A stretch of DNA of 64,000 nucleotides, taken from assembly GCF_013839425.1 (NCBI RefSeq), contig NZ_JACDNP010000002.1, positions 187,453-251,452 of the forward strand. The letters are read 5' to 3'. This stretch comes from Halorhabdus salina (GTDB taxonomy: Archaea; Halobacteriota; Halobacteria; Halobacteriales; Haloarculaceae). Under the pieces are notes generated by a model, which worked only from the letters and a program-made list of their open reading frames with translations, did no database searches and was not told the DNA's origin. Of this stretch, positions 7,239-64,000 are shown one piece after another. Position 1 is the first letter of the stretch. Every line of letters starts with the position of its first letter. The position numbers and the translations under genes are program-made.

Positions 7239-10200
7239 TCAGTCGACGGACTCGAACAGTAACTGCAGGACGTTTCGCTGGACAGTGCGAACGTGTTGGT
7301 GGAAGGTCGCGGGGGCAATGCCAATGGCATCAGCGATTTCCTCGCCACTGCTCTCGCGAGGCCACTCGAAAAAGCCGCGCCGGTAGGCAATCGTCAGGAT
7401 CTCTTGCTGTCGGTCGGTGAGTCCTTCCAGCGCGCCCGCGAGTGACATCGTCCGGTCCGCCTCAACCGTTCGCTGGGCGTGGAGTGTCAGATCCGCATAG
7501 GTGTCTTGGAGATCCTCGACGAACGCTCGTACCTGATCGGTCCGTGGCACGTAGACCGTCAGTCGGTTCGTCCGCTCGTCGGCGACGAGTCGGTGCAGAC
7601 GAGCACCGTGTGTCCCGAGGATTGCAAGCATGGTCGACTCACGGAACGCGAGTTCGATCTGCTCGTCCCCCTCGGCCCCGAACGTCGTCGCTCGTTCGAC
7701 CATCGGTTCGGCCGCAAGGGACTCGGCTACCGGCCCGATATCTGGTGCCGTTGCGTAGGCCAGATAGTTGCCGTCCGACCGTTGTACGACGCTCGTGACG
7801 GTCAGTTCCGAGTCCGTAAGCGACCCGAGACTGAGGAGGAACTCCTCGCCGGACGGGATCGTGAGTTCGAGTTCGACGCCACCCCCCGACTGGAGGGATC
7901 GATCGCGTTCGAGGCTGGTGATCGCGTAGGCGATGGTCGTCCCGAGTTCGGCCAGGACGGTCCGTTCTTCGTCGGCGAAGACGCCAGGCTGATCGGCATA
8001 GATCTCCAGCACGCCGTACTCGCGCGTCCCGTAACTGATCGGGATGGCGACAGCGGCCTGATAGCCCATCTCCAGGGCCGTCCGTCGCCATGGCCCACTC
8101 GTATCACTTGAGACGATGTTCGGCACTTCGACGATACGCTGTTGCTCGATGGCGCGCGACGCGATCGACGTGTCCGCCGAATCGTCGCCGATGGTTGCGA
8201 ATGCCTCCGCCCGGTCGTCCGAAGCGGCCCGGAGTGCGAATCCCGGGTCAGTCACGGACGGGGTACCGATCCAGGCGAGTTCCCAGTGATCGATCGACGC
8301 GAGGTTCTGACAGACGGCGTCTTCGACCGCTGAGCGCGTCGTGGCTTCGACGATCGTTTGCTGGATGTCTCTGATGATCGCGTTGATCCGACGGAGTCGT
8401 TCGAGCCGTTCGTTCTGGCGCTCCAGTCGCGCCGTATACTCCTGGAGTCGTTCGCGCTGTTCGACGCTCTTGTAAGCCGCAGTGACGTTCCGGGCCAGCG
8501 TTTCGACGAACTGCCGGGCGAAGTCGGTTTGTTCTGGCCCATGCTGGCGATCGGCTGCAAGGACTCCCACGTCGCCGATGGGGACGGCGAGTAGTCGGGA
8601 CGATGGTTCGGACTCGTGGTCTCCCGGATCGAGCGCGTCGAGAGCAGGGTCCTCACGAACGAACGCCTCCCAAATCGGGCCGTCGTCGGGACCGACAGTT
8701 TCCTCGAAGACGGAGTTTTGGGACGTCGGCACAGATCGAGCGACGCGCTCCAGCGTGCCGGTTTCGTCGTCCCACCGGTAGAACGCCAGCGGGACGGTCT
8801 CGGCAGTGCCTTCGATCGCATCGATCGTTTGGGCCGGAATGGCATTGGCGGATTCGACGTCGAACAGCGACCGCGTGGCCTCGTGGAGTGAACGCAACTG
8901 CTGGCGTCGACGTCGGTCGGCAAAGAGGGCACCGACTTGCTGGACGAGATTGCGGACGAAGGTGAGTTCCAGCGTCGAAAACGGTTCGTCCCGGGCATCT
9001 TGGGCTACAAAACAGATCGTGCCTTGCAGGTCACCGTCCACGAACAGCGGCGCGCCGACGTATGCCGAAATCCCGAACTGTTGGTAGGCGGGTTCGTCGT
9101 CGAATCCCTGGCCAGGGGCGTCGTAAATGCTGAAAACGTCTTCCCGTTCGACGACGGTTTCACAGAACGTGTCTTCCAGCGGGAGTTGTTGTCCAGCAGA
9201 GAGTTGATCGCTCTCACCGGTAAGCGTCGAGAGTTCGACGACGCCGTCTTCGATGGCGGTGAGATAGCCGACAGACAGACCGACGCGTTCACGACCGATC
9301 TCGATGATAGCTTCGATCTTTTCGTCGAACGATCGATCGGCGTCCGTGAGCACGTCTTGGAGGTCCAGGAGTGCGCGATCGTTGGCTTCGAGATGCTGGC
9401 GGTGCCGATATTCGGCAGTGATGTCACGGACGGCACCGCGAACGGCCGTGACCGCTCCTGTGTCGGTCAGTGGTTCGCCGACGATACGGACCCACCGTTG
9501 GTCGTCGTCCCGGTCGATCCGCACGCGATAATCAAAGCCGAGGCCGTACTCCCGCGCGCGGTCGAACGCCGTCTTGACGCGCTCACGGTCCTCCGGGTGA
9601 AACACCGCAGTCACGGCCTCAAGCGTGGGTTCGCTGTCCACGTCGAGATCAAACAGCTGACTGAACTGCGTTGTCGTCCGCACGGTTCCCGATTCGACGT
9701 CATACTCCCAGGCACCGACGTTAGCCAATCGCTGGGAGTGTGCCAAGAGATCGCGACTCCGTTCGAGCTGCCGTTCGCGCGTCTTCTGTTCGGAGATGTC
9801 GACGTGCACGCCGACGACGCGGACTGGCTCGCCGCTGTCATCGCGCTCGACCACCCCGCCGACGGTCCTGATCCACTTCCAGTCGCCCTCGGCCGTCTGC
9901 AGTCGATGTTCGGCCTCGTATCGCTCTGTCTTACCGTCAAGATGGGTCTCGATCTTGGTCTCGACGGCCGGCAAATCGTCGGGATGCACCAGTTGTTCCC
10001 ACCCCTCCCTGTCGGCTTGGATGGTTGCGCGGTCGTAGCCGAGTATCTCCCCCCACTGGTCGTTGAACGTGACCTCGTCGGTCCGGAGGTCCCAGTCCCA
10101 GATGCCGAGGTCGGTCCCCTCGACGACGAGCTTGAGGTGGTCGGCCAGGCGGGCGAGTTCCTGTTCGCGGGCTTTCCGATCGGAGATATCCGCCTGGATC

Positions 10201-11675
10201 GCGACGAAGCCGGTGATCTCCCCGTCGGCTTCGATCGGTGCGATCGTCTGATGGGCTGTATAGTGTTCGCCGGTCTTTCGCTCGTTAATTATCTCCTCTT
10301 CCCAGCGCTCGCCGGAAAGCAGCGTCTCCCACATGTCATCGTAGTACGCCTCAGCCATCTCGCCTGACTTGAGAATTTGGGGGTTTTCGCCGATCGCCTC
10401 GTCCGAATCGTAGCCGGTAATTCGCTCGAACGCCGGGTTGACGTAGTTGATGGTGCCATCCCGATCCGTGAAGTAGACGGCGTGCCCAGCGTTCTCGACC
10501 GCCGATTTGAGCCGTTCGCGGTCCTGCTCGCGCTGCTTGCGCGCCGATATCTCCCGCGTCGAACCGACGAGATACTCGACGGTATCCTCGACGATGACTG
10601 GGGCAACCCGTGTCCACCAGACCGTTCGCTCGCCGTCCAGATATATCGCCTCTTCGTACTCGATGGGTTCTCGACGCTTGAGGCACTCCCGATATCGGGC
10701 CGCAATTTTGGCCCCCTGGTCCTCACCGACCGCCTCGCGTGGCGTCTGTCCCTCGATCTCCTCGGCATCGATGCCACTCTGGGTTTCGTAGGCCGGGTTG
10801 ACCCGGTCGATGACGAACCCGTCGTCAGTCACGTCGACGAGAAACGCCCCGTCCTGGGTATGCTCGAAGAACGTCTCGGCCATCTCGAGGTCACGCTCGC
10901 GTTGCTTGCGCTCGGTGATGTCGGTAAAGACGGTCGCGAACTGACCGGCTTCGGGTGAGAACACGGAGACGTGAAAGTGCTTCTCCAGGGGTGGATAGTA
11001 CGTCTCGAACTCGATAGGGTCGCCCGTTTCGACGACGGTTGCACATCGGTCGAGATACGGGGGCTCGTCTGACTCGTAGATGTCAGTCGCGGGCTTGCCG
11101 ACGACATCTTCGGCCGTCAGGTCGAGCGTGGCCTCAAAGGCCTCGTTGACTTCGAGCAGTCGGTAATCGACCGGCTCTCCGTCTTCGAAGACGAGTTCGT
11201 GCAGTACCACCCCCTCGTTCATCTCGGTGAACAGCGACCGGTAGCGGTGCTCCAACGTTTCGAGGCGGCTGGTCGCTCGTGTGTGTTTAACAGCGTTGTC
11301 GATGCGGTTGGCAAGCAATGTGTACTGGTCTATCCCGGTTTCTTTCTGCAGGTAGTCTGTGACGCCGGCCGAGACCGCGTCACTGGCCACTGCCTCGGAT
11401 CCTCTGCCGGTATAGAGAATAAAAGGGAGGTCGGGCCAGCGCTCCCTGACGGTTCGTAAAAATTCAATCCCGTCCTGGCCGGGCATCTCGTAATCGCTGA
11501 CGATACAGTCGTAGGATGTCGCTTCGAGTTGGTCCAGGCCGGCCTCGGCGTCCGGGACGGTCGCGACGGTGATCCGGTTGTCCTCGCGTTCGAGCGCGTC
11601 GACAGTCAACGACGCGAGGTCGGCGTCGTCCTCGACGTAGAGAACGGCTATCTCACCGTCCTCCTCACTAGCCAT
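7239..11675 (-). CDS. hybrid regulator: receiver, five PAS, three GAF, Bat and HTH_10 domains
   Basis: A 1478-residue cytosolic protein. Order: CheY-like receiver (8-125; phospho-acceptor D61 in CIVSDYEMPGQDG), five PAS domains separated by ITERKQRE-type linkers (about 145-265, 275-390, 395-515, 520-650, 655-770), three GAF domains (about 790-930, 940-1080, 1100-1260), a Bat-type region (1270-1405) and a C-terminal HTH_10 (LTDRQQEILTIAYRRGFFEWPR, then IADAIGIAPATFHQHVR). HTH_10 proteins such as Bat activate transcription of bop and other genes in response to oxygen and light. There is no kinase domain, so an external kinase must phosphorylate the receiver. No neighbouring target is evident; the next gene downstream on this strand is the transducer operon. 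It is unusually long for a single-chain regulator. Confidence 0.9.
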   Translation of the reverse strand: MASEEDGEIAVLYVEDDADLASLTVDALEREDNRITVATVPDAEAGLDQLEATSYDCIVSDYEMPGQDGIEFLRTVRERWPDLPFILYTGRGSEAVASDAVSAGVTDYLQKETGIDQYTLLANRIDNAVKHTRATSRLETLEHRYRSLFTEMNEGVVLHELVFEDGEPVDYRLLEVNEAFEATLDLTAEDVVGKPATDIYESDEPPYLDRCATVVETGDPIEFETYYPPLEKHFHVSVFSPEAGQFATVFTDITERKQRERDLEMAETFFEHTQDGAFLVDVTDDGFVIDRVNPAYETQSGIDAEEIEGQTPREAVGEDQGAKIAARYRECLKRREPIEYEEAIYLDGERTVWWTRVAPVIVEDTVEYLVGSTREISARKQREQDRERLKSAVENAGHAVYFTDRDGTINYVNPAFERITGYDSDEAIGENPQILKSGEMAEAYYDDMWETLLSGERWEEEIINERKTGEHYTAHQTIAPIEADGEITGFVAIQADISDRKAREQELARLADHLKLVVEGTDLGIWDWDLRTDEVTFNDQWGEILGYDRATIQADREGWEQLVHPDDLPAVETKIETHLDGKTERYEAEHRLQTAEGDWKWIRTVGGVVERDDSGEPVRVVGVHVDISEQKTRERQLERSRDLLAHSQRLANVGAWEYDVESGTVRTTTQFSQLFDLDVDSEPTLEAVTAVFHPEDRERVKTAFDRAREYGLGFDYRVRIDRDDDQRWVRIVGEPLTDTGAVTAVRGAVRDITAEYRHRQHLEANDRALLDLQDVLTDADRSFDEKIEAIIEIGRERVGLSVGYLTAIEDGVVELSTLTGESDQLSAGQQLPLEDTFCETVVEREDVFSIYDAPGQGFDDEPAYQQFGISAYVGAPLFVDGDLQGTICFVAQDARDEPFSTLELTFVRNLVQQVGALFADRRRRQQLRSLHEATRSLFDVESANAIPAQTIDAIEGTAETVPLAFYRWDDETGTLERVARSVPTSQNSVFEETVGPDDGPIWEAFVREDPALDALDPGDHESEPSSRLLAVPIGDVGVLAADRQHGPEQTDFARQFVETLARNVTAAYKSVEQRERLQEYTARLERQNERLERLRRINAIIRDIQQTIVEATTRSAVEDAVCQNLASIDHWELAWIGTPSVTDPGFALRAASDDRAEAFATIGDDSADTSIASRAIEQQRIVEVPNIVSSDTSGPWRRTALEMGYQAAVAIPISYGTREYGVLEIYADQPGVFADEERTVLAELGTTIAYAITSLERDRSLQSGGGVELELTIPSGEEFLLSLGSLTDSELTVTSVVQRSDGNYLAYATAPDIGPVAESLAAEPMVERATTFGAEGDEQIELAFRESTMLAILGTHGARLHRLVADERTNRLTVYVPRTDQVRAFVEDLQDTYADLTLHAQRTVEADRTMSLAGALEGLTDRQQEILTIAYRRGFFEWPRESSGEEIADAIGIAPATFHQHVRTVQRNVLQLLFESVD

Positions 11676-14519: not shown

Positions 14520-15065
14520 ATGAGAGGCACTGAAGAAGATGAAGAAATCGAACGAGCGATTCAGTATTTAGTCCATTCGTTCGAAACGTCGGGGAATAAT
14601 CCGAAACCGGTGATACTCCATAGTACACGAGTCGGGATGGATCTTTACGACAGAGGATACGAGAAGCCCATTGTTATCTCCGGCTTCCTCTACGATCTAA
14701 TAGAGGATACGGATGTGACTGCTGTTGAGATTCGCTCGGAGTTCGGAGACGACGTTGGAAATATTGTGGCAGCCACTAGTTTCGACGAGAGTATCGACGA
14801 CTATCTCGAACAACACTACGATATCTATGAAAGATGCTTCGAACTTGGACGGCCTGCGGTCGTCGTGAAAGCTGTGGATATCCTCGATAACAGTGATTAC
14901 TACGATTTGGAGGGGTCGGAGGAACTACGAAAGAACCTGATCGAGAAGATGGAGTACTTCATCGAGCACTCTGAACCGTCTATTGGAGACGAGGACGTCC
15001 ATCGGGAACTCACGGACAAGTTCACCATCGTGAAGGAACGATTGGGGATGAATCCGGACAGTTGA
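14520..15065 (+). CDS. HD-domain-like protein (RelA/SpoT or MESH1-like hydrolase fold)
   Basis: A 181-residue all-helical protein. The segment ILHSTRVGMDLYDRGY, then VISGFLYDLIEDTDVTAVEIRSEFG, then VVVKAVDILDNS matches the order of motifs in HD phosphohydrolases of the SpoT/MESH1 kind (H, HD, ED and a late D). The metal-binding HD pair is replaced by Y58-D59, while H34, E62-D63 and D121-like aspartate remain. The family hydrolyses (p)ppGpp or related nucleotides; with the altered HD pair activity is doubtful. The gene stands alone. Codon usage is slightly AT-richer than its neighbours, with a promoter-like ATTTTAGC 25-30 nt upstream of ATG 14520. Confidence 0.6.
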   Translation: MRGTEEDEEIERAIQYLVHSFETSGNNPKPVILHSTRVGMDLYDRGYEKPIVISGFLYDLIEDTDVTAVEIRSEFGDDVGNIVAATSFDESIDDYLEQHYDIYERCFELGRPAVVVKAVDILDNSDYYDLEGSEELRKNLIEKMEYFIEHSEPSIGDEDVHRELTDKFTIVKERLGMNPDS

Positions 15066-15740: not shown

Positions 15741-15785
15741 CGATCGACCGCAATGCACTCACTGCCGAACGACCAACCCACGCCC

Positions 15786-16421
15786 ATGACTGACTGGGAC
15801 GTCTATCTCGTCACGCAGGAATCGCTGTCGGGCGACCGAACCACCCCCGAAGTCGTCGCGAACGCTATCGACGGCAGCGTCGACGTGGTCCAGCTCCGGG
15901 AAAAGGACGTAAGCGCACGAGAGCGCTACGAGATGGGCCAGGAGATCCGGGAAATCACCCGCAAGGCAGGCGTCACGTTCATCGTCAACGACCGCGTGGA
16001 TCTGGCGCTCGCCCTCGAAGCGGACGGCGTCCATCTCGGCGACGAGGACCTGCCCGTCCCGGAGGCCCGCCAACTCCTCGGCGAGGACGCGATCATCGGC
16101 CGATCGGTGAGCTTCGTCGAGGCCGCCCGCGAGGCGGCGGCAGCGGGCGCGGACTACCTTGGCGTCGGGGCGATCTACGCCACCGGCTCGAAGGACGATA
16201 TCGACGACGAAGAATACGCCATCGGAACGGACCGGGTGGCCGAGATCGTCGATGCCGTCGACATCCCGGTCGTTGGGATCGGCGGCATCACCGCCGAGAA
16301 CGCGGGCGCGGTGATCGAAGCGGGTGCCGACGGCGTCGCCGTTATCACCGAAATCACGGGTGCCGACGATCCGGCAGCCGCGACGCGGGACCTCGCGACC
16401 GTCGTCGCAGACGCAGACTAG
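15786..16421 (+). CDS. thiE: thiamine-phosphate synthase
   Basis: A 211-residue TIM-barrel enzyme that joins HMP-PP and the thiazole phosphate to give thiamine phosphate. Motifs seen: VQLREKDVSARERY (phosphate/pyrimidine binding), IVNDRVDLALALEADGVHLGDEDLPV, GRSVSFVEAAREAAAAGADYLGVGAIYATGSKDD, and the C-terminal VVGIGGITAENAGAVIEAGADGVAVI phosphate-binding loops. The start MTDWDVYLVTQ at 15786 matches the first barrel strand; the longer ATG at 15753 adds an unlikely MHSLPNDQPTP. It follows the DUF123 gene by 45 nt. No other thiamine gene is near; haloarchaea commonly pair thiE with thiM, which is not seen here. Confidence 0.93.
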   Translation: MTDWDVYLVTQESLSGDRTTPEVVANAIDGSVDVVQLREKDVSARERYEMGQEIREITRKAGVTFIVNDRVDLALALEADGVHLGDEDLPVPEARQLLGEDAIIGRSVSFVEAAREAAAAGADYLGVGAIYATGSKDDIDDEEYAIGTDRVAEIVDAVDIPVVGIGGITAENAGAVIEAGADGVAVITEITGADDPAAATRDLATVVADAD

Positions 16422-16643
16422 ACGGTCGAGACGTCCGCATCCGAGAGCACGACACTCATCGAATTACGGTTCTCCGTATTCCGATCGATCGCTCTGCCTA
16501 TCGAGAACGAGACACCCACCAGCTCTACACACGTTTTCTTGGAGGGCTGGATTCTACGAGGACGGCGGCGAGATCTGAACTAACACAGTATGGTTGGTAT
16601 TATTTAACACATGATTTATCACCGCAACGCTCCTAGACTAAGT

Positions 16644-18125
16644 ATGGGTACAGACAGGGCCTCGACTGGCATCCCAGGGTTGGACGAAATCCTCTGTGGT
16701 GGGTTCCGGAAAACCCACAATGCCCTGGTTCGAGGCCCGCCAGGGGCAGGCAAGACGATTTTCGGCTTGCATTTCCTCTCAGCGGGTGTCGACGCCGGGG
16801 AGACGTCACTCTACGTCAACCTCGGAGAGCCGGGCGAGTACGTCACTGAGACGCTCGAAGCGTTCGATCTCAACCCAGCAGAGATCCATGTCCTCGACCT
16901 CTCGCCGTCACACGACGATTTCGCCGAAGGAGAGAACTATTCGGTCTTTTCGAACGCTGAAGTCGAGCAACCCTCGTTCATCGATGAACTTCGCAGCACC
17001 GTCGAGGACCTCGACCCTGATCGCGTACTGCTCGACCCGATCACGGAATTCCGCTATCTGACGACCGACGAACGCCAGTTCCGGAAGCACATTTTGGGAT
17101 TGCTCGATTTCCTCCGGGCGAGTGGGGCGACAGTGGTATTCACCTCCCAGGCCTCGGACTCGCTCTCTGACGATGACCTCCAGTTCCTGACGGATACGGT
17201 GATCAATCTGGACACCCAGATCGACCACTCGACGCTGTTCGTCTCGAAGTTCCGTGGCTCATCCTACCAGCCCGGCATCCATTCCTACGAGATCACGGAC
17301 GAGGGGATCACCGTCTACCCGAAACTCGCTCCGGAAAGCGAGCGGGTCCAGACTAGCGAGGAGTCCGTGCGGAAACTCACCGCGGGCATCCCCGAACTGG
17401 ACGAACTCCTCAAAGGTGGACTCGACCCCGGCACCGTCACGTTCGTCAGTGGCCCCACGGGCGCGGGCAAAACCACGACGGCGTTGCAGTTCATCAAGGA
17501 GGCGGCCGGCCGTGGCGAGCAGAGTGTGATGTATTCCTTCGAGGAGTCGCCCCGCACCGTCCGCCAACGCTCGCGTGCGATCAGCATTCCCATCGACGAC
17601 ATGCTGGACCGGGGGACCCTGGCCATCGAAGAGATCGCCCCCAACGAGTACTCGGCAAACGAGTTCACGTCGCGGGTCAAAGCCGCCGTCGAAGAAGACG
17701 GAGTGAGTATCGTCCTGCTCGATGGGTTGGAGGGCTTCAAACGAAATCTGCGTGGGTTCACAACCGACCCGGAAGACGTCTTGCTCCGGATCGTGCGATA
17801 TCTTCGAGCGGCGGGCGTCTCGACGTTCATCACGAACGAAGTCACCAACATCACCGGCGAGTTCCGCGTCACCGAAGAGTCGGTGAGTAACCTCGCGGAC
17901 AACATCATGTTTTTGCGCTACGTCGAAGCCGAGAGCGAACTCGGCAAGGTCATCGGCGTGTTGAAGATGCGGACGGGCGACTTCCAACGGAGTCTCCGCG
18001 AGTTCGAAATCACGCAGTATGGGCTTCGGGTGGGCGAACCGCTGGAGAACATGCAGGGCATCCTCACGGGGACACCACAGTTACAGGAAACACAATCCGA
18101 CGCCCGCGCCCATGACGGGGACTGA
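16644..18125 (+). CDS. KaiC-like double RecA-domain ATPase
   Basis: A 493-residue protein with two RecA/KaiC domains: Walker A GPPGAGKT at 31-38 and GPTGAGKT at 270-277. The C-terminal domain keeps the KaiC CII signature ITGEFRVTEESVSNLADNIMFLRYVE...LKMRTGDFQRSLREFEI. At the two autophosphorylation positions of cyanobacterial KaiC (S-T) it has S415-N416, so only one site is retained. Archaeal homologues act as ATP-dependent switches in signalling. The start MGTDRAST at 16644 is preferred over 16611 because it begins the family core. A TATA-like TATTTAAC lies at 16601-16608. The stop overlaps the next gene, a histidine kinase, by 14 nt, so the two are co-translated. Confidence 0.9.
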   Translation: MGTDRASTGIPGLDEILCGGFRKTHNALVRGPPGAGKTIFGLHFLSAGVDAGETSLYVNLGEPGEYVTETLEAFDLNPAEIHVLDLSPSHDDFAEGENYSVFSNAEVEQPSFIDELRSTVEDLDPDRVLLDPITEFRYLTTDERQFRKHILGLLDFLRASGATVVFTSQASDSLSDDDLQFLTDTVINLDTQIDHSTLFVSKFRGSSYQPGIHSYEITDEGITVYPKLAPESERVQTSEESVRKLTAGIPELDELLKGGLDPGTVTFVSGPTGAGKTTTALQFIKEAAGRGEQSVMYSFEESPRTVRQRSRAISIPIDDMLDRGTLAIEEIAPNEYSANEFTSRVKAAVEEDGVSIVLLDGLEGFKRNLRGFTTDPEDVLLRIVRYLRAAGVSTFITNEVTNITGEFRVTEESVSNLADNIMFLRYVEAESELGKVIGVLKMRTGDFQRSLREFEITQYGLRVGEPLENMQGILTGTPQLQETQSDARAHDGD

Positions 18126-19608
18126 GACATCCCCGTTCGACGTGCTCCCGGAGCGAAAGGGGAGCGTTGGCACCGTCCTGGTCCAAACGGTGAGCGACGG
18201 GGATCGCCGACAACTCAAAAACTGGCTCGAAGAACAAGCTGACTACGAGGTCGCGCCGGCTGATATTCACTGCGGTGAGTCCGATTGTTGTATTATGGAT
18301 TGGCAGACACTCCTCGACAACCAGGAGACACTCCGAGAGCGAAAACACGAGTCACAGATTCCACTCCCGGTCGTGTTGCTCGTCCCGGACCAACGAGCAG
18401 AAGCGATATTTCGCGCCCTGCAGACTGAGTACCAGGAGCTCGAACCGCTCGTTGACGAACTGCTCGGGATGCCACTCTCCCAATTCGAACTCAGACAGCG
18501 ACTCGATTCCGTGCTGCGGGCCCGAACACAGGCGGCCCAGTTGCATGCAAAACACGAACAGCTCTACACGATCCTGGACCAACACCCCGGCCATGGGGTG
18601 ATGATCACGGATACAGCGGGGACAATCAAGTACGTAAACCAGGGCTTCGAACACCACTCGGGCTATACAGCCGAAGAGGTGCTCGGTGAGAACCCACGGA
18701 TTCTGAATTCGGGCGTCCACGACGAGTCCTTTTTCGAAGAGCTCTGGGAAACGGTCCTGTCCGGGGATATCTGGACTGGCGAACTGACCAACGAACGCAA
18801 GGATGGCACGCGATATATCGTCGATCAGGCGATCGCACCGCTCACGGGCCCGAACGGCGATGTCCAACGGTTGGTGGCGATAAGTCACGAGATTACTGAC
18901 TTGCGCGAACTCGCGGACAAACTCGAGGAGCAACGGACCCAACTCGACCTGCTCAACCGGGTGTTGCGCCACGACATTCGAAACGATATGCACGTAGTGC
19001 TCGCCTGGACGGAGTTCGTCGAGCCCCATGTTGACAACGAGGGCGAGGCGATGCTGGAGAAAGTAATGACGGCTGGCGAACACGTCGTCGAGCTGACTGA
19101 CGTTGCCAAGACGATCGTCGAAGGGATCTTTGGGGATTCGGAGCCTTCCCTCGAACCAGTCGAGGTCGAACCGCTTCTCAGACACGTCATCGAAACACGA
19201 CGGGAGACGTTCGAGCACGCGACGATTTCGGTGGATGGGGACCTGCCGGACGCTTTTGTCAACGCCAACGAGATGCTCTCGGCCGTCTTTCGGAACCTGA
19301 TCAACAACGCCATCCAGCACAACGATTCGGACGAGCCGACAGTTTCCCTTAAGGCGGAAGAACGCGACGGCTCAGTTCGTATTCAGATCGCGGACAATGG
19401 CCCTGGCATTCCGTCGGAGCGACGGGAGGACCTCTTCGATAGTGACGTCAAAGGCTTAGACAGCGAGGGCACCGGGATGGGGCTGTATTTAGTCGATAAG
19501 CTGACCGAGATGTACGATGGTTCGGTTCGGATCGAGGCAAACGAGCCCCGGGGCAGTGTTTTCATCGTTGCATTCCCCACGATCGAGAGAAACGCAGGTG
19601 ACCAATGA
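18112..19608 (+). CDS. histidine kinase with receiver-like N-terminus and one PAS domain
   Basis: A 498-residue cytosolic kinase. Residues 17-138 resemble a degenerate receiver (VGTVLVQTVSDGDRRQLKNWL, CCIMDWQTL with D63, then VVLLVPDQ). A PAS domain follows (150-265; TILDQHPGHGVMITDTAGTIKYVNQGFE). The H-box is LLNRVLRHDIRND (H287) and the ATPase has FRNLINNAIQH (N), IADNGPGIP (G1) and GTGMGLYLVDKL (G2). It overlaps the KaiC gene by 14 nt and the next kinase by 4 nt (ATGA). The ATG at 18112 is supported by that coupling. No dedicated response regulator is adjacent, so the KaiC-like protein or the paralogous kinases may be partners. Confidence 0.9.
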   Translation: MTGTETSPFDVLPERKGSVGTVLVQTVSDGDRRQLKNWLEEQADYEVAPADIHCGESDCCIMDWQTLLDNQETLRERKHESQIPLPVVLLVPDQRAEAIFRALQTEYQELEPLVDELLGMPLSQFELRQRLDSVLRARTQAAQLHAKHEQLYTILDQHPGHGVMITDTAGTIKYVNQGFEHHSGYTAEEVLGENPRILNSGVHDESFFEELWETVLSGDIWTGELTNERKDGTRYIVDQAIAPLTGPNGDVQRLVAISHEITDLRELADKLEEQRTQLDLLNRVLRHDIRNDMHVVLAWTEFVEPHVDNEGEAMLEKVMTAGEHVVELTDVAKTIVEGIFGDSEPSLEPVEVEPLLRHVIETRRETFEHATISVDGDLPDAFVNANEMLSAVFRNLINNAIQHNDSDEPTVSLKAEERDGSVRIQIADNGPGIPSERREDLFDSDVKGLDSEGTGMGLYLVDKLTEMYDGSVRIEANEPRGSVFIVAFPTIERNAGDQ

Positions 19609-22274
19609 CTGAGAGCGAGAGCGATCTGTTTGAGACGACCATTCGGGAGTCCCCTCGGGTACTGCCGCTCGTGTCGGATCCGGGCAACCGCGAGCAGCTT
19701 GCCGCGTGGATAGACTCCCGTGAAACCCTGGCGTGTGTTCCATTCGAGGAGGATCTGGCAGAGATCGATTTTGACGTCTGTATTCTCGATAAAGGGGCAC
19801 TACAGGAGTATCGTCAGGAGCTTGGGCGTATCAAGGAGGAGGCCGAACCGATTATCGTTCCGTACCTGTTGTTAGTCCCGGAGTACGATGAAAGCCTCAT
19901 CGAATTCGAACAGCAACAACTCATCGATACGGTCACACCGGCCTCAGTCGACGAAATCGCGAGCCTGCCGATCAAACAACAGGAGTTAGAATGGCGTGTG
20001 CGTGCCCTCCTCCGCCTCCGAAACCAGTCGATCGAGGCCCAAACCGAGGGCCGCCGCTATCGGGCGCTGTTCGAGAGTGTGAACGACGCTATTCTCGTTT
20101 CCGATACCGATCGAACCATCGTCGATTGTAACCAGGCGTTTACCGATCTGTTCGGCTACTCGCTCGCCGAAATCGAAGGGAAGCCCACCCACACGGTCTA
20201 CGAAAGCAAGGCTGAATTCGCGGAGATGGGCGAGGCGATCGAGAATTACATCGGTGACCCTGCGTTCAGGAAGATAGTCTCCTATGAGACGAAATCGGGG
20301 GCAGTCTTTCCCGGCGAAACTGGCGTCTTCTATCTGCAGGATCGGGACGGAACGATCCAGGGCTTTATTGGCTTGATCCGGGATGTCTCGGACCGGCTAC
20401 AGCGAGAGCGCGAACTCGAACGATACGAGGCCGCGGTCGAAGAATCGACGGACATGTTGAAAGCAATAGATCGGGACCGACAGATCCTGTTCGCGAACGA
20501 GCGCTACCGCGAGTTCGTCGGAGAACCGAACGAGGAACTCCGCGGTCGTCACGTCCGTGATATTGTTGGGGAGGACAGCTACTCGGAGATCGACCCGCGC
20601 TTCGAGCGAGTTTTGGCGGGTGAATCGCTCCAATATGAGCGCGAACAGACAACAACCGATGGGGAAACACGGATCCTCGACGTTCACTATTACCCCTTGC
20701 GTGAGGAGTCAGGGGACGAGATCACGGGCGTCGTCGCGGCACTGCGGGACATCACCGAGCGCGAAGAACAACTCGCTCGGATCGAGCGCCTCTCGGAATA
20801 CCGGCGGATTCTCTCCGAGGTCAATCAGCTGTTAGTCTCGAAAGACGGGAAAACCGAGGTTCTATCGCGTATCATGGAGAGGCTCGCGGACAGCGATCTC
20901 TTCGCGTGTACGTTCCTTTCGGAACGCCAGTCCCAATCGATAGCCTTCAGCTGCGAGACGGACTCGGACCTGGACCACCAGTCCGTGGAATCGTTCCACA
21001 CCGCGGCGTACGTCCAGGCGGTGACCGAGAATGGGGCGTTGCACATCGACGACGTGACTGGCTCACGCTTTAACCAGCATGTCGAGGATGCACCGGCACA
21101 CGAGGGCTACGCTGTCGAACTGTCGCATGCGGGCGAATCGTACGGGATTTTGACGGTTCACTTCCCGCCTGGTGAACACCCCCGAGATGAAGAGATGGCA
21201 TTGCTGGACGATCTCGGTGACGACATCGGGCTGTTCCTGCACGCACGAGAGACGGAGGCCGAACGGGAGCTGTTCGCCGAGATCGTCCAAAGCCTCGACG
21301 ACCCGGTCATGTTTCAGGATCGTGATGGGGCTTTTCAGGTTATCAACGACGCCGTCGCCGAGTACGCGGATCAACCGCGAGACGCCTTGCTCGGGGATGA
21401 CGAGTTCGCCTTCATGGACGACGATGCCGCACGGATCGTGGCCGAACAGAAGCAGCGGGTGCTCGATACGGAACGACCCCACACGTACAACCTCAGAACG
21501 ACGTTCCCGGAGAAGAGCGAACGCGTGTTCAAGACGACCCGGTACCCGCATTACGATACCGACGGGTCGCTGGATGGCACCGTGGCTATCTGTCGGGACG
21601 TGACAGATCTAAATGAGCGTGAAAATAACCTTCGCGTGTTCGACCGCGTGCTTCGGCACAATATTCGAAATAATATGAATGTGGTGCTGGGAAATGCCGA
21701 GTGGATCCAGGAAAATCCCCAGGCGGATCACGAGCAAGCCACACAGCGAATCCTCGATACTGGCCGTGACCTCGTTGATCTGTCACATAATGAGCGCCGG
21801 ATCGTCGAATTACTGACGGATCCCCAGCACGCACAGACGATAGACCTATTGCCCATTCTCGAACGAATACGCGCCTCGATACGCGAGGAATATCCCGACA
21901 GTGAGGTCCACATTGAGGGGGCAGAGACCGTGACTGTACAGGCAATCTCAGAGATCGAAGCAGCGATCTACGAACTGGTGGAAAACGCCATCAAACATCA
22001 AACCCGGGAGCCCCCGCACGCGACGGTGACCGTCAAAGACAACGCTGACTCGGTAGCAATACGAGTCAAAGATCACGGGCCCGGCATTCCCGAGATGGAG
22101 CGGAGTGTGTTGCTCGGTGAGCGCGATATCACGCCACTCCTCCACGGGACCGGACTGGGGCTCTGGCTGGTCAAACACATCGTTACCCAGTCCGGCGGCC
22201 GACTCGACTTCGAAGAGAACGACCCGGAGGGAAGTATTGTGGAACTTCAATTCCCAGTCGAAGAGACGGCATGA
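19605..22274 (+). CDS. multi-sensor histidine kinase (receiver-like, PAS, GAF)
   Basis: An 889-residue cytosolic kinase. Its first 140 residues repeat the receiver-like domain of the preceding kinase (ESPRVLPLVSDPGNREQLAAWI, VCILDKGAL with D62, PYLLLVPEYDE). Then come a PAS (150-265), a second PAS (270-395), a GAF-like domain (405-560), a third PAS (570-670), the H-box RVLRHNIRNNM (H685) and an ATPase domain with YELVENAIKH, KDHGPGIPEME and GTGLGLWLVKHI. The start overlaps the stop of the previous kinase by 4 nt. The PAS1 segment CNQAFTDLFGYSLAEIEGKPTHTVYES is closely similar to one in the third kinase, so the set arose by duplication. Confidence 0.9.
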   Translation: MTESESDLFETTIRESPRVLPLVSDPGNREQLAAWIDSRETLACVPFEEDLAEIDFDVCILDKGALQEYRQELGRIKEEAEPIIVPYLLLVPEYDESLIEFEQQQLIDTVTPASVDEIASLPIKQQELEWRVRALLRLRNQSIEAQTEGRRYRALFESVNDAILVSDTDRTIVDCNQAFTDLFGYSLAEIEGKPTHTVYESKAEFAEMGEAIENYIGDPAFRKIVSYETKSGAVFPGETGVFYLQDRDGTIQGFIGLIRDVSDRLQRERELERYEAAVEESTDMLKAIDRDRQILFANERYREFVGEPNEELRGRHVRDIVGEDSYSEIDPRFERVLAGESLQYEREQTTTDGETRILDVHYYPLREESGDEITGVVAALRDITEREEQLARIERLSEYRRILSEVNQLLVSKDGKTEVLSRIMERLADSDLFACTFLSERQSQSIAFSCETDSDLDHQSVESFHTAAYVQAVTENGALHIDDVTGSRFNQHVEDAPAHEGYAVELSHAGESYGILTVHFPPGEHPRDEEMALLDDLGDDIGLFLHARETEAERELFAEIVQSLDDPVMFQDRDGAFQVINDAVAEYADQPRDALLGDDEFAFMDDDAARIVAEQKQRVLDTERPHTYNLRTTFPEKSERVFKTTRYPHYDTDGSLDGTVAICRDVTDLNERENNLRVFDRVLRHNIRNNMNVVLGNAEWIQENPQADHEQATQRILDTGRDLVDLSHNERRIVELLTDPQHAQTIDLLPILERIRASIREEYPDSEVHIEGAETVTVQAISEIEAAIYELVENAIKHQTREPPHATVTVKDNADSVAIRVKDHGPGIPEMERSVLLGERDITPLLHGTGLGLWLVKHIVTQSGGRLDFEENDPEGSIVELQFPVEETA

Positions 22275-22356
22275 ATGGCACTCGAGCACTGAACTCGGGC
22301 GTGTCACTCGGAACCTGCCCGATCAGTTAAGGCCCTGTCGATCGATACCACGAAAC

Positions 22357-24000
22357 ATGCAACGGTCCCGGACGGTTGTGCCCGTCGCCGCTGCCCTCGG
22401 GCTTGGTCTCTGGGTGGCCGATGCGGCTATCGACGCTCTCTTTTTCTACGACGAACCGTTCTTGGCGCTGCTCGTGACCGATGTCCCAGCCCACGAACTG
22501 TACATCCGGGTGTTGATACTGCTCGTCTTCCTTATCTTTGGGATCGTCATGGCTCGTGGGACGGTAGAGATACGCGAGCGCGAACACGAGGCAACGCTGT
22601 TTCGCCGACTGGTCGATGAAGCCACTGACAGCGTGTTCGTCATCGATCCGGAGACGGGGATCATCGAGGACGTCAATGCCTCGGCCTGCGAGGCACTTGG
22701 CTACGAGCGCTCGACGCTGATCGGGATGTCCGTCGCCGAGATAAATCCCGAATTCGAGGACGCGACAGCGTTCGAGAAGTTCATGGAGTCGGCTGAGGGT
22801 GAGACGCTTGACTACTATGAGACAACACACGTGCGGGCCGACGGGACCACGTTCTCGGTCGAGATATCAGCCACAACAGTCGATATCGACGACCAGATCT
22901 ATCGGATCGCGATCGCTCGCGACGTCACCAAACGCACGGAGATGGTCGAGGACCTCCGCCGGAGCAGACAGCGCTACGAGTCCCTGTTCGACAGCATCAG
23001 AGACGCCATTCTGGTCGCCGACCCCGACCGCCGGATCGTCGACTGTAACCGGGCGTTCACCGAGTTGTTCGGCTACACACTCGCCGAGATGGAGGGGAAG
23101 TCGACCGAGTTCCTCTACGAGAGCGAGTCGGCGTTCGACGCGATCGGTGACTCGCTGGACAAACACGCCGAGGACCCGACGTTCGTCGAGACGATTCGCT
23201 ACGAGAAGCAGTCCGGCCAGGTGTTCCCGGGAGAGACGAACATCTTCTATCGCCGGGACGAAAACGGGGAGATCGCCGGCTTCATCGCCCTCATCAGAGA
23301 CGTGTCCGATCGCCAGGCACGAATGACACAGATCCGGACGATTGATCGGGTCCTGCGGCACAATCTCAACAATGCGCTGACGGTCATCCTGGGCAACGCC
23401 GAAACGATTGCAGACGGAGAGACCGACGACCCCCGATGGGGCGCCGAGCGCATCATCCAGACCGGCGAGAAACTCCAGGCCACCACTGCCAAGGAACGCG
23501 AGATTACGACCTTCCTGGCCGAGTCCCGGCCAACCGTCGAACGTGACGCGGTCACCGTCGTCGAGAGCGCCGTTACCGACCTGTGTGAGCGCCACCCAAA
23601 CGTCGATCTGACTCTCGATTGCCCGGCCTCCCAGCCGGTCGTCGCGGTGGCACATCTCGGCCGGGCGATCGAGGAACTGCTCGAAAACGCTGTCACTCAT
23701 TCCGACCGGGAGACGCCGTCGATACAGGTCGCGATCGAAACGGCCGACGGCGTCGTCGAGATCAGCATTGCGGACGACGGCCCGGGGATCCCCGAGATGG
23801 AGCGAAACGTCCTCACCGGCGAGCACGACATCGAGCCGCTGTATCACGGCCGGGGCATCGGCCTGTGGCTGGTGCACTTGATCGTGCAGTACTCGGATGG
23901 GACGCTCACCGTCGACGAGAACGACCCTCGTGGCAGCGTCGTCACTGTCCGACTCCGGGCGCCAGGCCGAGAGTCTGCTGCCGACCCGGCGACCGAGTGA
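22357..24000 (+). CDS. membrane-anchored histidine kinase with two PAS domains
   Basis: A 547-residue kinase. Two N-terminal hydrophobic helices (about 7-28 and 43-65; VLILLVFLIFGIVMARG) anchor it with almost no extracellular loop. Two PAS domains follow (75-195 and 200-320), then the H-box RVLRHNLNNAL (H335) and the ATPase motifs IEELLENAVTH, DDGPGIPEMER and GRGIGLWLVHLIVQ. The second PAS is close in sequence to the first PAS of the preceding kinase. ATG 22357 follows an 82-nt gap with no strong promoter, so it may belong to the same operon. The last codons and stop lie in the first unit of a 32-bp tandem repeat. Confidence 0.9.
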   Translation: MQRSRTVVPVAAALGLGLWVADAAIDALFFYDEPFLALLVTDVPAHELYIRVLILLVFLIFGIVMARGTVEIREREHEATLFRRLVDEATDSVFVIDPETGIIEDVNASACEALGYERSTLIGMSVAEINPEFEDATAFEKFMESAEGETLDYYETTHVRADGTTFSVEISATTVDIDDQIYRIAIARDVTKRTEMVEDLRRSRQRYESLFDSIRDAILVADPDRRIVDCNRAFTELFGYTLAEMEGKSTEFLYESESAFDAIGDSLDKHAEDPTFVETIRYEKQSGQVFPGETNIFYRRDENGEIAGFIALIRDVSDRQARMTQIRTIDRVLRHNLNNALTVILGNAETIADGETDDPRWGAERIIQTGEKLQATTAKEREITTFLAESRPTVERDAVTVVESAVTDLCERHPNVDLTLDCPASQPVVAVAHLGRAIEELLENAVTHSDRETPSIQVAIETADGVVEISIADDGPGIPEMERNVLTGEHDIEPLYHGRGIGLWLVHLIVQYSDGTLTVDENDPRGSVVTVRLRAPGRESAADPATE

Positions 24001-24093
24001 CTGGTGGCCGGCGCTCCTGGGCGACCGAGTGACTGGTGGCCGGCGCTCCTGGGCGACCGAGTGACTGGTGGCCGGCGCTCCTGGGCGACCGAG
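23991..24093. repeat. tandem 32-bp repeat, 3.2 copies, spanning a stop codon
   Basis: Identical 32-bp units at 23991-24022, 24023-24054 and 24055-24086, followed by a 7-nt partial copy. Each starts GACCGAGTGACTGGTGG and ends GCGCTCCTGGGC. The first unit supplies the last codon and TGA of the histidine kinase; later copies carry the same TGA in the same phase relative to the unit. Since 32 is not a multiple of three, copies fall in different frames. All three copies are perfect, indicating recent expansion or homogenisation. Confidence 0.95.
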
Positions 24094-24158
24094 CGCTGTC
24101 GGCCAGCTGCTCAGCCGGCCACGGTGGTTTCTTGGCCTTCCAGCGGGTTGCTCTCTGC

Positions 24159-25793
24159 ATGAAACCCTGGCAGCGCCGAACCGTCGGGTACGCGTTCATC
24201 CTGGCGGTTGTCATCCTCGTCTTCGCCGTCTTCTATCAGCGCGGAATGGCCGTCTTCGAAGGGGAGTCGAAAACCTTCTTGAGGTCGCTGCAGATCGTCG
24301 TCGAGACGTTCACCACGACCGGCTATGGGTCGGACTCCCCCTGGCATACCCCGGTGATGAACGGGTTCGTCATCTTCATGGACCTTACCGGCGTCATTTT
24401 GCTCATCACCGCCCTGCCGGTGCTCGCGATCCCGCTACTGGAGGAACTGCTGGAGACGACCGTGCCCGAGAGCGCCCCCGACGGGTTCGCCGATCACGTC
24501 ATCATCTGTACGTACACGTCCCGTGCCGAAGCGCTGATCGACGAACTCGATTCCTGGGACGTCCCCTATCTCATCCTCGAACCGGATCGCGAGCAGGCGA
24601 TCGCCCTCTCCGAGGAAGGGTATCACGTTGTCAACGCAGACCCGGAGACGGCAACCGGCCTCACCGCGGCGAACCTGGCCGACGCGCGGGCGCTGGTGGC
24701 GGATGTCTCCGACGAGGTCGACGCCAGCATCGTCCTGGCGGCTGGCGAAGTGGCCGAGGACGTGCCGATCATCAGCGTCCTCGAGCAACCGGACAGCCGG
24801 CCGTATCACCGCCTGGCCGGCGCCGACGAGGTCCTGTCCCCGCGGCCGCTGCTCGGGGAGAGCCTGGCCGCGAAGGTGACAACCAGCCTCGACACCGACC
24901 TGGGTGACGCCATCGAGATCGGTGAGGACTTCGAGATCGTGGAACTACCGCTCCAGCGGGGCAGCCCGCTGGTCGGGACGACGCTCGCCGAGAGCGGGCT
25001 CCGCGAACAGACCGGCGTCAACGTCCTGGGCGTGTGGTTCGACGGCGAGTTCCAGACGCCGCCCGATCCCGAGGCGCCGCTGACCAACGGGACAGTGCTC
25101 CTGGTCTCCGGCCACGAACGCGACATCAACGAACTCAGGGAACTGACACTCGCTGATGTCCGGACCTTCGGGTACGGGGAGACGATCGTCGTCGGGTACG
25201 GCGAAGTGGGGCAGACGATCACCGAGTCCCTTGCGGACGCCGGCGTTCCATACACGGTTGTCGACACCGTCGATATGGAGGGCGTCGATCACGTCGGTGA
25301 CGCCACAGACCCGGAGACGCTGCGGGCGGCGGGCGTCGAGGACGCCCGCTCGGTTATCCTCGCACTCCCGGACGATACGACGACCGAGTTCGCAACGCTC
25401 GTGATCAGAGACCAGAGTCCGGACACCGAGATCGTCGCCCGCGTCGAGGAGTCACGGAGCATCCAGAAGATGTATCGTGCCGGTGCGGATTACGTCCTCG
25501 CGCTGGCGACTGTCAGCGGCCGGATGATCGCCTCGGCGATCCTCGAAGACGAGGCAGTCCTCTCACTGGAGGCACAGATCCAGGTTGTCCGCACGCCGGC
25601 GCTCGGTCTCGTTGGGCAACGGCTGGGTGAGGCACGTGTCCGCTCGGAGACGGGCTGTACCGTCGTCGGGATCGAACGGGACGGGGCTGTGCTGACGGAC
25701 GTGGGGTCGAACGCTCGCATCGAGGAGGGTGACGAACTCGTCATCGCGGGCACCGACGACGGGATCGCCGCGTTCAACGAGCAGTTCGGCTGA
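24159..25793 (+). CDS. MthK-like RCK potassium channel
   Basis: A 544-residue channel subunit. One transmembrane helix (10-28), a pore helix with filter TTTGYGSDSPW (T54-G55-Y56-G57), and a second helix (67-93) form a 2TM pore; the GYG triplet indicates K+ selectivity. The cytosolic part has two tandem RCK units, TrkA_N (about 112-230) plus TrkA_C (245-325), then TrkA_N (VVGYGEVGQTITESLADAG, 340-440) plus TrkA_C (455-540). The first TrkA_N lacks a clear dinucleotide-binding G-x-G-x-x-G (HVIICTYTSRAE). Calcium or nucleotide gating is expected for the family. The start MKPWQRR at 24159 was chosen because longer frames read through the tandem repeat. It is the last gene in the kinase cluster direction. 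Confidence 0.85.
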   Translation: MKPWQRRTVGYAFILAVVILVFAVFYQRGMAVFEGESKTFLRSLQIVVETFTTTGYGSDSPWHTPVMNGFVIFMDLTGVILLITALPVLAIPLLEELLETTVPESAPDGFADHVIICTYTSRAEALIDELDSWDVPYLILEPDREQAIALSEEGYHVVNADPETATGLTAANLADARALVADVSDEVDASIVLAAGEVAEDVPIISVLEQPDSRPYHRLAGADEVLSPRPLLGESLAAKVTTSLDTDLGDAIEIGEDFEIVELPLQRGSPLVGTTLAESGLREQTGVNVLGVWFDGEFQTPPDPEAPLTNGTVLLVSGHERDINELRELTLADVRTFGYGETIVVGYGEVGQTITESLADAGVPYTVVDTVDMEGVDHVGDATDPETLRAAGVEDARSVILALPDDTTTEFATLVIRDQSPDTEIVARVEESRSIQKMYRAGADYVLALATVSGRMIASAILEDEAVLSLEAQIQVVRTPALGLVGQRLGEARVRSETGCTVVGIERDGAVLTDVGSNARIEEGDELVIAGTDDGIAAFNEQFG

Positions 25794-59606: not shown

Positions 59607-60547
59607 ATGTCAGACACCACTAATCAACACATCCAGAGGTTCCTCAACCGAGTACGTGGGATGAAGTCTGAGGGCACCTATGAAGCGCGGTACAACGCCC
59701 TACAGAAGTATGAGACATGGCTCTCAGCGAAAGATCTCTCGGTTACTGAGGTAACACCCTTGGACATTGAGGACTACCTCACATGGCTATCTAATGAGGG
59801 CTATGCGCCGAATACCATCGACAGCTATTATGCTGCTGTTCGACTCCTCTATAAGTTTCTTCTCCGCAACAAGACGCTTGAGGAAAACCCTGCAGCTAAT
59901 ATCGATCAGGGGAACCTCAAGTCCCTCACTTCTGGGACGAAAAAGCAGGAGTCAGCAGTCAAGGCCTACGTTACCGAACCAGAGAAGGAGGCTCTCGTAG
60001 AGCATACCCCTACCCCTACACTGCGGAATCGGCTCATCATCCGGCTTCTATGGCAAACAGGCCTTCGGAGGAGTGAACTTGCGACCATTGAACTCAGCGA
60101 CCTAGATCAAGACGAGCGCACCATCGACGTATACTCGCAAAAGACTCACTCCTCCCGCACGGTCTATTATCAGCCTTCTCTTGATTTCCTTTTAGAACAG
60201 TGGCTCTCCGGTGGCTACCGGGACTCCTACCCACCGGCTCCCGATAGCCCATATTTAGTCCCGAGCAAGCGGCGGGAACACATCGATAGCGATGCTATTG
60301 GTAGGATAGTTGTCCAGGCTGCTAAAAACGCAGACATCCAAGAAGTACTGTACCGTAATGCCGATGAGAAGCCGCGCTATCGGATTACAGCCCATGCTCT
60401 CCGACATGGTCTATACACTCGATCAAATCTGGAATCGATCTACGGCGGGTACAGCAGCATCTCGGCCATCAAAACCTGAGTACGACTGAACGTTACCTCC
60501 AATTTGTCGATGAAGACGTCAAGGAAGCCTACCAAGACTTTGTGTAG
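59607..60547 (+). pseudogene. int: tyrosine recombinase/integrase, frameshifted near the C-terminus
   Basis: The first 268 residues are a XerC/phage-type integrase: SAM-like N-domain (FLNRVRGMKSEGTYEARYNALQKY), catalytic R154 in TGLRRSEL and H263-x-x-R266-H267 in HALRHG. The frame then reads LYTRSNLESIYGGYSS and stops at 60479. In another frame the DNA continues perfectly as SIHSIKSGIDLRRVQQHLGH, QNLSTTERYLQFVDEDVKEAYQDFV and stop at 60547, with the missing LGH histidine and catalytic tyrosine (ERY). A loss of one or a few bases around 60410-60420 explains this. As it stands the 290-residue product lacks the nucleophile. Sequencing error or recoding cannot be excluded. Confidence 0.75.
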
Positions 60548-60575
60548 CACACTTAATATATTTAAATAGGTGTGC
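60547..60575. repeat. inverted repeat with AT-rich core after the recombinase gene
   Basis: GCACAC (60547-60552) and GTGTGC (60570-60575) flank TTAATATATTTAAATAG, a 17-nt AT-only core but for the last base. It begins at the recombinase stop codon. It may be a terminator, a recombination core or a replication/unwinding element. Confidence 0.6.
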
Positions 60576-60863
60576 GATTTGGGATCGCTTCTCTTCGTCT
60601 ATTGTAATAAATGGAAGATTCAAAACCACGGCACTGCGGTGTGGTTTAGAGATGGCTACCGTACAACAATACTGTAGACAGTATTGGGTGGCGGTAATAC
60701 ACAGTACTCCCTCATTCGCAATTGACTACCTCTATTGTTCAGAACTCACTGTCCAGCTATTTCACATGGGTCTAGTGTCTAATTCATAGGGGTACGCGTT
60801 AGACAATTCTTGCACAACCAAAAAGCAAAAAGTGACGCTTGGGAAATAGCTGGCTCACATTAC
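60576..60863. other. non-coding stretch with strong hairpins
   Basis: No supported gene. It contains AAACCAC/GTGGTTT (60623-60629 and 60641-60647, 11-nt loop) and the near-perfect palindrome CAATACTGTAGACAGTATTG (60667-60686; 8-bp arms, TAGA centre). Hairpins and AT-rich DNA between recombinase and replication genes could belong to an origin or to a small RNA; neither is demonstrated. The tail has a TTG in frame with the next gene at 60810. Confidence 0.4.
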
Positions 60864-62129
60864 ATGACTGCTGGATTATCGGATGCTGTTGATAAAATAC
60901 CTGAGCAGGAATTAGCTGAGTTGGTAGCTCAGCTAAAGCGCCGTAAAGGTGAGCAAGCAGAAGTAAAATCGACCGGAGAAAAGTGGTTTGTCCTCTCTGC
61001 TACTGACTCAGGAACTGACCTCATTTGGGTATTGGAAGAGGCGCCAAACCATGAACAGGAGCTACAGAAGTTTCGCTCCTTTGCGGAGAAGAAGAATGTT
61101 GACCGCCCGGTTTTGGCGAGTACCGGCCAGATTAATGGCAAAATTCGTAGAGCTGCCGAGTCTGTAGACGTTGATCTCCTAACTCGGGAAGACATTGTTG
61201 ATGGAATTAAATCTGAGGATTTAGCCGAATCTGTTACATCAAGGTTCTTTGACGAATCTGGCGATAACACCCACGTAGAGGACCCCAATCCGTCTTCTAG
61301 CGGCTCACCACCAACGAGCACTCAAAAAGAGGATCGCTCTATTAGCGATATAGCTCTAGAAGCTTCAGGTAATGTAAAAGAAAAGCATCTCTCTGACACC
61401 GAAACTTCCCGCCCCATTTTGTCTTATCTCCACCCAGAAGAACAACTGCAATATCTCTTCTACCACTGGCGGAAAGGTGTACGAATTGAGGGTCCAAATG
61501 GGGATGTAGACACTCCATACAACACTGGAATCTTTAGCGCGAAGCGGAGGTACTTGCTAATAACTGACAAACGCGTTTTATTTATAGCGGGTGATCCAGA
61601 TTCGAACGACGAATCCCTAGATATCCCTCATTCCAAAATCAAACGCGTAGAATCGGAATTGAAAATAATGAAGCAATTCCTCAAAATTGAAACTCACGAC
61701 GGGCGAGTTATCACATTCTTTGATGGAGGGCATGAGGCTGAACATCTGCCTGACGCTAAAGAATATTTATCCAAGGAATTGAATCAGGCTGGTGGAGGCC
61801 CGGTGGGAACTCAGGAAAATGTGGAGAGAGAGGATTCTAACAATCATACTTCGGAAATAGATCCATTAGAGTCCTCAGATAAGTCAAAAAAGGACATTAC
61901 CGTCGGCTTGATACTTTCTTACATTGTCGGTGCTGTAACCTTCTTAGGTGTATTTTTTGTTGATTACAGCGTTCCTGCATACATTCCTTTGTTCCTCTCT
62001 GGGGTCATAGTCTTCCCCCCGACAAGGAGGTGGTTAGAAGATTCATTCAATATCAAGATGAGCCGATGGCTCGTGGTGGTAACATTCGTTCTATTACAGA
62101 TTATTGGTGGGGCACTGATGGGGCCATGA
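60864..62129 (+). CDS. multi-domain protein: nuclease-like, PH-like and transmembrane regions
   Basis: A 421-residue protein (ATG 60864; a TTG at 60810 would add 18 residues). Residues 20-130 look like an Mrr/restriction-endonuclease-type fold: ELVAQLKRRKGEQAEVKSTGEKWFVLSA, then LIWVLEEAPNHEQELQKFRSFAEKKNVDRPVLASTG and IRRAAESVDVDLLTREDI, the usual strand-helix pattern with lysine and glutamate, though a clear PD-(D/E)xK is not seen. Residues about 190-300 form a bacterial PH-like domain (GIFSAKRRYLLITDKRVLFIAGD, then SKIKRVESELKIMKQFLKIETHDGRVITFF). An acidic linker and three to four hydrophobic helices (345-421) follow. The combination suggests a membrane-associated defence or stress protein; function unknown. 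Confidence 0.65.
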   Translation: MTAGLSDAVDKIPEQELAELVAQLKRRKGEQAEVKSTGEKWFVLSATDSGTDLIWVLEEAPNHEQELQKFRSFAEKKNVDRPVLASTGQINGKIRRAAESVDVDLLTREDIVDGIKSEDLAESVTSRFFDESGDNTHVEDPNPSSSGSPPTSTQKEDRSISDIALEASGNVKEKHLSDTETSRPILSYLHPEEQLQYLFYHWRKGVRIEGPNGDVDTPYNTGIFSAKRRYLLITDKRVLFIAGDPDSNDESLDIPHSKIKRVESELKIMKQFLKIETHDGRVITFFDGGHEAEHLPDAKEYLSKELNQAGGGPVGTQENVEREDSNNHTSEIDPLESSDKSKKDITVGLILSYIVGAVTFLGVFFVDYSVPAYIPLFLSGVIVFPPTRRWLEDSFNIKMSRWLVVVTFVLLQIIGGALMGP

Positions 62130-62153
62130 TCGATCCGAGGTATCGGTAATTAA

Positions 62154-63581: not shown

Positions 63582-63733
63582 AGCTTTCCATTGTCTTTAG
63601 GACCCGAGGCTCACGCTTAGATAGGGACGATAGACACAAATAAAGAGAGAGCCCGTCAATAATGTCCGGAACGTAATTTTATGATCTATTGATTTTTAGA
63701 TCGCGTAATCCCTCTTTTCTCTTTCCGAAGGTG

Positions 63734-63973
63734 CTAGGAAACTGCTCGTCGGCCTAATGTGAATACTAGTGCGGCTTCAATAATCGCTCCTGTCGCCGAA
63801 GTAACTACCCCTACGGTTTCCGCCTCCGGGGCTAAAGCCATATTTCCGTTTGAGAAGGTGAAGAGACGCCTCATTGAAAAGAGACTAACCCTAATTGCGC
63901 GACCCCAATTGACCTCGCCCGATAGGTCTAAATAAATTACAGAACCCGATTCTGTAGCAATCCCGAAATGCAA
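63734..63973 (-). CDS. small hypothetical protein with one membrane helix
   Basis: A 79-residue frame on the minus strand with a C-terminal hydrophobic segment (VGVVTSATGAIIEAALVFTLG). Internal ATGs near residues 33 and 45 are alternative starts. No family recognised. The 152 bp between it and the primase gene contain no gene but are AT-rich. It could be part of a longer transcription unit that continues off the window. Confidence 0.4.
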   Translation of the reverse strand: MHFGIATESGSVIYLDLSGEVNWGRAIRVSLFSMRRLFTFSNGNMALAPEAETVGVVTSATGAIIEAALVFTLGRRAVS

Positions 63974-64000
63974 GAATAGGGCGGTAGAAATCGCCCAGAC

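Follow-up and report, generated by a model that had tools for sequence, protein, structure and literature searches.

Genes for two-domain KaiC-like ATPases and genes for histidine kinases with an N-terminal pseudo-receiver domain are physically paired across haloarchaea, in more than 100 genomes. One such locus lies in the window, i.e., the whole stretch of 64,000 nucleotides that was analysed, which belongs to a haloarchaeal genome of 2.86 Mb. With moderate confidence, we propose that its KaiC-like ATPase and two adjoining kinases (kinases 1 and 2) constitute one signalling module, acquired as a cassette, in which the pseudo-receivers would dock the kinases on KaiC and the state of KaiC would gate kinase output to a REC-HalX regulator.

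The KaiC-like gene (16644..18125, + strand) overlaps the gene for kinase 1 (18112..19608, +) by 14 nt, which in turn overlaps that for kinase 2 (19605..22274, +) by 4 nt, and a gap of 82 nt precedes a third histidine kinase gene (22357..24000, +), which encodes a membrane-anchored PAS kinase. These boundaries agree with the initial annotation, which called the genes fused by translational coupling; the gene overlap stands, but the wording overstates what is really an overlap. The start of the KaiC-like gene at 16644 is preferred over an alternative in-frame ATG at 16611, because the alignment with homologues begins at about residue 12 and a TATA-like sequence, ttatttaa, is present 5′ of the gene at 16600-16607. 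On the left the KaiC-like gene and those for kinases 1 and 2 are flanked by thiE (15753..16421, +), and the gene for a TrkA-type K+ channel (24036..25793, +, start tentative) follows kinase 3 on the right. The operon contains no response regulator gene, as had been noted before; the REC domain nearest to the KaiC module is on the other strand, at the N-terminus of a Bat-type regulator (7239-11675, −). That regulator is a protein of 1478 aa with REC, several PAS, GAF, BAT and HTH_10 domains. Between it and thiE lies a gene (14520-15065, +) for a small HD-domain protein that weakly resembles the hydrolase region of RelA/SpoT.

The KaiC-like protein aligns over its full length to solved KaiC, and both of its domains match Pfam KaiC (two PF06745 stretches, E 9e-76). 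CI covers about residues 18-238 and CII about residues 244-470, numbered from the upstream ATG at 16611, and each is a RecA-like domain with Walker A and B motifs. These motifs are conserved in both domains across 42 relatives, together with the K-x-R of CI and of CII, and the Glu pair of CII is kept in 41 and 42 of the 42, respectively; in the CI pair, the first position is Gly in the window protein and in 24 relatives, and Glu in the other 18. The codons at 17886..17891 (+) encode S415-N416, which occupy the position of KaiC S431-T432 by alignment. The Ser431 equivalent, S415, is Ser in all 42 relatives, whereas the Thr432-equivalent column holds Tyr (24), Asn (12) or His (6) and Thr in none, so the S431-T432 dual phosphosite of circadian KaiC is absent and the pair is a single Ser throughout the family rather than in the window protein alone. 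The reduction of the phosphosite pair to S415-N416 had thus been located correctly; it is not a defining loss of this protein. Judged by these alignments, the comparison indicates that both predicted ATPase sites and the Ser431 equivalent are kept. A defence system was considered and rejected, the only match being a weak one to mad8 over 43 residues around the CII P-loop. KaiB is needed by the cyanobacterial oscillator. A search of the window genome returned no KaiB match at E ≤ 0.01, while the control search recovered Synechococcus elongatus; a KaiB encoded elsewhere in the genome was rejected at this threshold.

Kinase 1 is arranged as pseudo-receiver, PAS and HisKA-like/HATPase, and kinase 2 as pseudo-receiver, two PAS, GAF-like, PAS and HATPase; the H, N, G1 and G2 boxes are intact in kinases 1, 2 and 3. 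An orthologue of kinase 1 at locus L039 is 61% identical. The N-terminal domains of kinase 1 (18112..18564, +) and kinase 2 (19605..20060, +) retain D63 (codon 18298-18300) and D62 (codon 19788-19790), respectively, which align with each other and with the phospho-Asp of receivers, in accordance with the initial annotation. Pfam gave no match for 39 members of this domain family beyond scattered ones at chance level. However divergent, the domain has a receiver fold by several routes: the family profile matched response-regulator receivers in the PDB (PleD and CheY, best E 1.4e-4); a profile-profile alignment with 20 genuine receivers encoded in the window genome gave a probability of 91% and E 1.2e-6; and an AlphaFold2 model of the kinase 2 domain (pLDDT 85, pTM 0.79) had receiver domains as its top Foldseek matches (probability 1.00; query TM-scores 0.46-0.64). 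The region described earlier as receiver-like is therefore not an unrelated domain. The Asp is kept in 36 of the 39 domains, and the other active-site positions are replaced: the acidic pair by V/L/M and S/A, with its columns placed by ungapped extension just before the hhalign-aligned block, the Thr by V/L/R, and the Lys by L/M/A/T. Thus, the domain is a receiver fold that has lost four of five catalytic residues, which accords with the definition of a pseudo-receiver as a receiver fold minus at least one catalytic residue (PMC12632262) and departs from the canonical receiver (PF00072), of whose active site Asp alone is kept. An ordinary receiver is ruled out by the absent Pfam match and the four missing residues, and a KaiB-like domain as in SasA by the receiver fold found instead. 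The retained Asp hints that some phosphorylation chemistry may remain.

The pairing of this domain with KaiC was established in two independent searches of the 146 genomes of the window's family, one for KaiC orthologues at E ≤ 1e-80 and one for domain hits, which gave 117 two-domain KaiC orthologues and 146 domain hits. A histidine kinase with the same N-terminal domain lies within 3 kb of 109 of the 117 orthologues, confirming an association far beyond chance, and the conserved neighbourhood on which the initial annotation had staked its interpretation is borne out for KaiC and kinases of the type of 1 and 2. Seen from the other side, 119 of the 146 domain hits are near a KaiC; the remaining hits include several located at the end of a contig or next to a KaiC fragment, as well as some genuine orphans, so that a minority of pseudo-receiver kinases has no KaiC nearby among the matches listed. 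The divergence of KaiC and that of the domain are correlated (r 0.74-0.81, against a maximum of 0.34 in 1000 permutations). Most loci have one such kinase, and tandem kinases that both carry the domain occur at about ten KaiC loci of the family. Class-wide, the domain is found in 195 of 292 genomes, and in other haloarchaeal families at least 79 of the 108 domain hits listed are within 3 kb of a KaiC; among the matches listed, the domain lies downstream of KaiC in 61 of these 79 and divergent from it in 18, with none upstream on the same strand and none convergent. The domain also occurs just 3′ of a KaiC outside the Halobacteria, in three genomes from another family of the phylum. A single-scan search of named genome contigs gave two Halorubrum loci only.

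Five KaiC copies (one each in G008, G016 and G187 and two in G244) lack such a kinase and have a stand-alone receiver-like ORF of about 90-147 aa directly 3′ of KaiC or overlapping it. Pfam Response_reg was matched by the two ORFs tested, and the acidic pair is absent here too. This interchange of fused and separate forms suggests that the receiver-fold domain is what faces KaiC. Neither a kinase nor a stand-alone ORF accompanies the KaiC copies at L059, L062, L063, L099 and L100.

The third kinase had been counted as part of a three-kinase cascade, which is refuted by synteny within the genus. All six genomes of the genus that were searched encode an orthologue of kinase 3, although four of them lack this KaiC, and in all six thiE is followed directly by kinase 3 with no KaiC-K1-K2 between them; the K+ channel gene then follows kinase 3 at L159 and L164. 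The 82-nt gap before kinase 3 in the window (22275..22356, +) is promoter-like and matches the regions upstream of the same-genus orthologues, which there lie directly 3′ of thiE; an alignment of seven such regions shows (g/c)aNTTAAg..., tcagta... and acATG. Because of this adjacency and the conserved upstream region, kinase 3 is placed outside the module, as an older and independently placed gene. At 77%, the identity of the window KaiC to copies from a different genus (G093) and a different family (G277) exceeds that to same-genus copies, which is only 57-59%. Taken together with the adjacency of thiE and kinase 3 elsewhere, this suggests that KaiC-K1-K2 is a cassette which arrived by lateral transfer and was inserted between the two genes. 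No direct repeats of 9 nt or more were found at the cassette ends in the stretches compared. Between kinases 2 and 3, the PAS domains that had been described as near-identical share 55% identity over 122 aa, so that description was too strong; the first PAS of kinase 2 (20052-20415) is 66-68% identical to the PAS of the kinase 3 orthologues at L160 and L162, as against the 55% with the window's own kinase 3, which suggests domain shuffling between the kinase 2 and kinase 3 loci.

KaiC homologues are widespread in archaea. According to a large survey, the output path of KaiC in archaea must differ from SasA-RpaA, RpaA being reported absent from Archaea (PMC5520375). The locus resembles SasA-KaiC in that a histidine kinase with an N-terminal non-catalytic domain is paired with a two-domain KaiC partner, whereas the domain of SasA has a KaiB-like thioredoxin fold and that of the window kinases a receiver fold. 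It also resembles CikA and KaiA, whose pseudo-receivers, receiver folds with a non-functional active site, contribute to the control of KaiC (PMC12632262). However, the pseudo-receiver of CikA is part of a hybrid kinase and acts by binding KaiB, whereas the window domain stands at the N-terminus and the search of the genome gave no KaiB; KaiA, in turn, is not a kinase, whereas the window domain is the N-terminal part of one.

In the mechanism that we favour, the pseudo-receiver would dock the dimeric kinase on the KaiC hexamer and keep it there, and the ATP- or phospho-state of KaiC would gate kinase autophosphorylation, with the PAS and GAF domains perhaps contributing a further input (redox, light or ligand). 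Phosphate would then pass to a response regulator encoded elsewhere, in a mode like that of SasA and CikA on cyanobacterial KaiC, via a different adaptor and without KaiB. Clustering of the neighbouring genes revealed no output gene common to more than five of the loci compared. A REC-HalX gene is present in the same operon in four relatives (L061, L066, L146 and L147), and the window genome encodes four clear HalX proteins elsewhere, which together would make REC-HalX the leading candidate regulator downstream of the kinases. More tentatively, and somewhat less probably than not, this may amount to a KaiB-independent KaiC output in haloarchaea, possibly also in other lineages of the phylum, in which a lineage-specific pseudo-receiver kinase reads the hexamer directly and passes its state to REC-HalX. 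If so, it would be an archaeal counterpart of SasA/CikA-RpaA that evolved separately.

The gene pairing itself is compatible with either direction of signalling between KaiC and the kinases. It is conceivable, if rather unlikely, that the kinases sense and control KaiC as the effector, which would bind and modify a transcription factor or other target, with the pseudo-receiver as input arm. The KaiC-like CirA of Haloferax volcanii regulates motility and shape (PMC13286277), KaiC lies 5′ of the kinases in the operon, and most loci have no conserved response regulator nearby, all of which would fit this direction; however, the REC-HalX genes in the operons of four relatives suggest conventional kinase output, and the kinases keep full catalytic boxes, yet KaiC has no receiver domain to accept the His-phosphate. 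Less probable again is that the kinases are generic haloarchaeal REC-PAS kinases, whose pairing with KaiC reflects shared ancestry of one locus and whose products make no direct contact. Kinases with an N-terminal REC do account for about 20% of archaeal REC proteins according to a survey (PMC5847659), but the domain family here is distinct from ordinary REC in its absent Pfam match and is mostly confined to KaiC loci, and the pairing persists through divergent reorientation, lateral transfer and the swap for a stand-alone receiver-like ORF. The relay initially envisaged, in which phosphate would move between the kinases by way of the receiver-like Asp and KaiC would act as output or timer, is very improbable, since the metal-binding acidic pair, the Thr and the Lys are all replaced, kinase 3 is outside the module and most loci have a single such kinase, even though the Asp is widely kept and tandem domain-bearing kinases occur at some KaiC loci.

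Makarova, Galperin and Koonin reportedly proposed in 2017 (mBio) that KaiC-like ATPases are archaeal signalling hubs. Two-domain KaiC, REC-PAS kinases (PMC5847659) and the KaiC-hub idea are already known in archaea. The archaeal REC-(PAS)n-HisKA-HATPase proteins of Galperin et al. 2018 have the same domain order, and up to 40% of their RECs may escape phosphorylation (PMC5847659); the window domain differs in being too divergent for Pfam, and the text consulted from that survey does not mention its link to KaiC. The literature searched, which covered few subscription papers, gave no description of this pseudo-receiver or of its tie to KaiC. This family of kinase domains, which occurs mostly beside KaiC, offers concrete candidates for the partners that archaeal KaiC has been missing. 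The cirC gene of H. volcanii encodes a two-domain KaiC similar in size to that of the window; it is reported to lie beside a gene annotated fixL, a name given to a PAS kinase, and has already been deleted (PMC3941300). CirC is probably orthologous to the window KaiC.

We note some further observations at these loci and in the window. One REC-HalX gene of the window genome immediately precedes, in the same orientation, a gene for a single-domain KaiC-like protein (G000 contig C22 71366-73025, locus L004), a second KaiC-HalX link in this genome. A protein that by eye resembles a globin-coupled transducer recurs within 6 kb of the KaiC module at L041, L042, L043, L067 and L073. GC content is 46-49% at 60001-64000 of the window, against about 62% elsewhere, and this segment is possibly a mobile island. 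Finally, a perfect 32-bp tandem repeat of 3.3 copies (23988-24093) starts within the final codons of kinase 3 and continues into the intergenic stretch that precedes the K+ channel gene.
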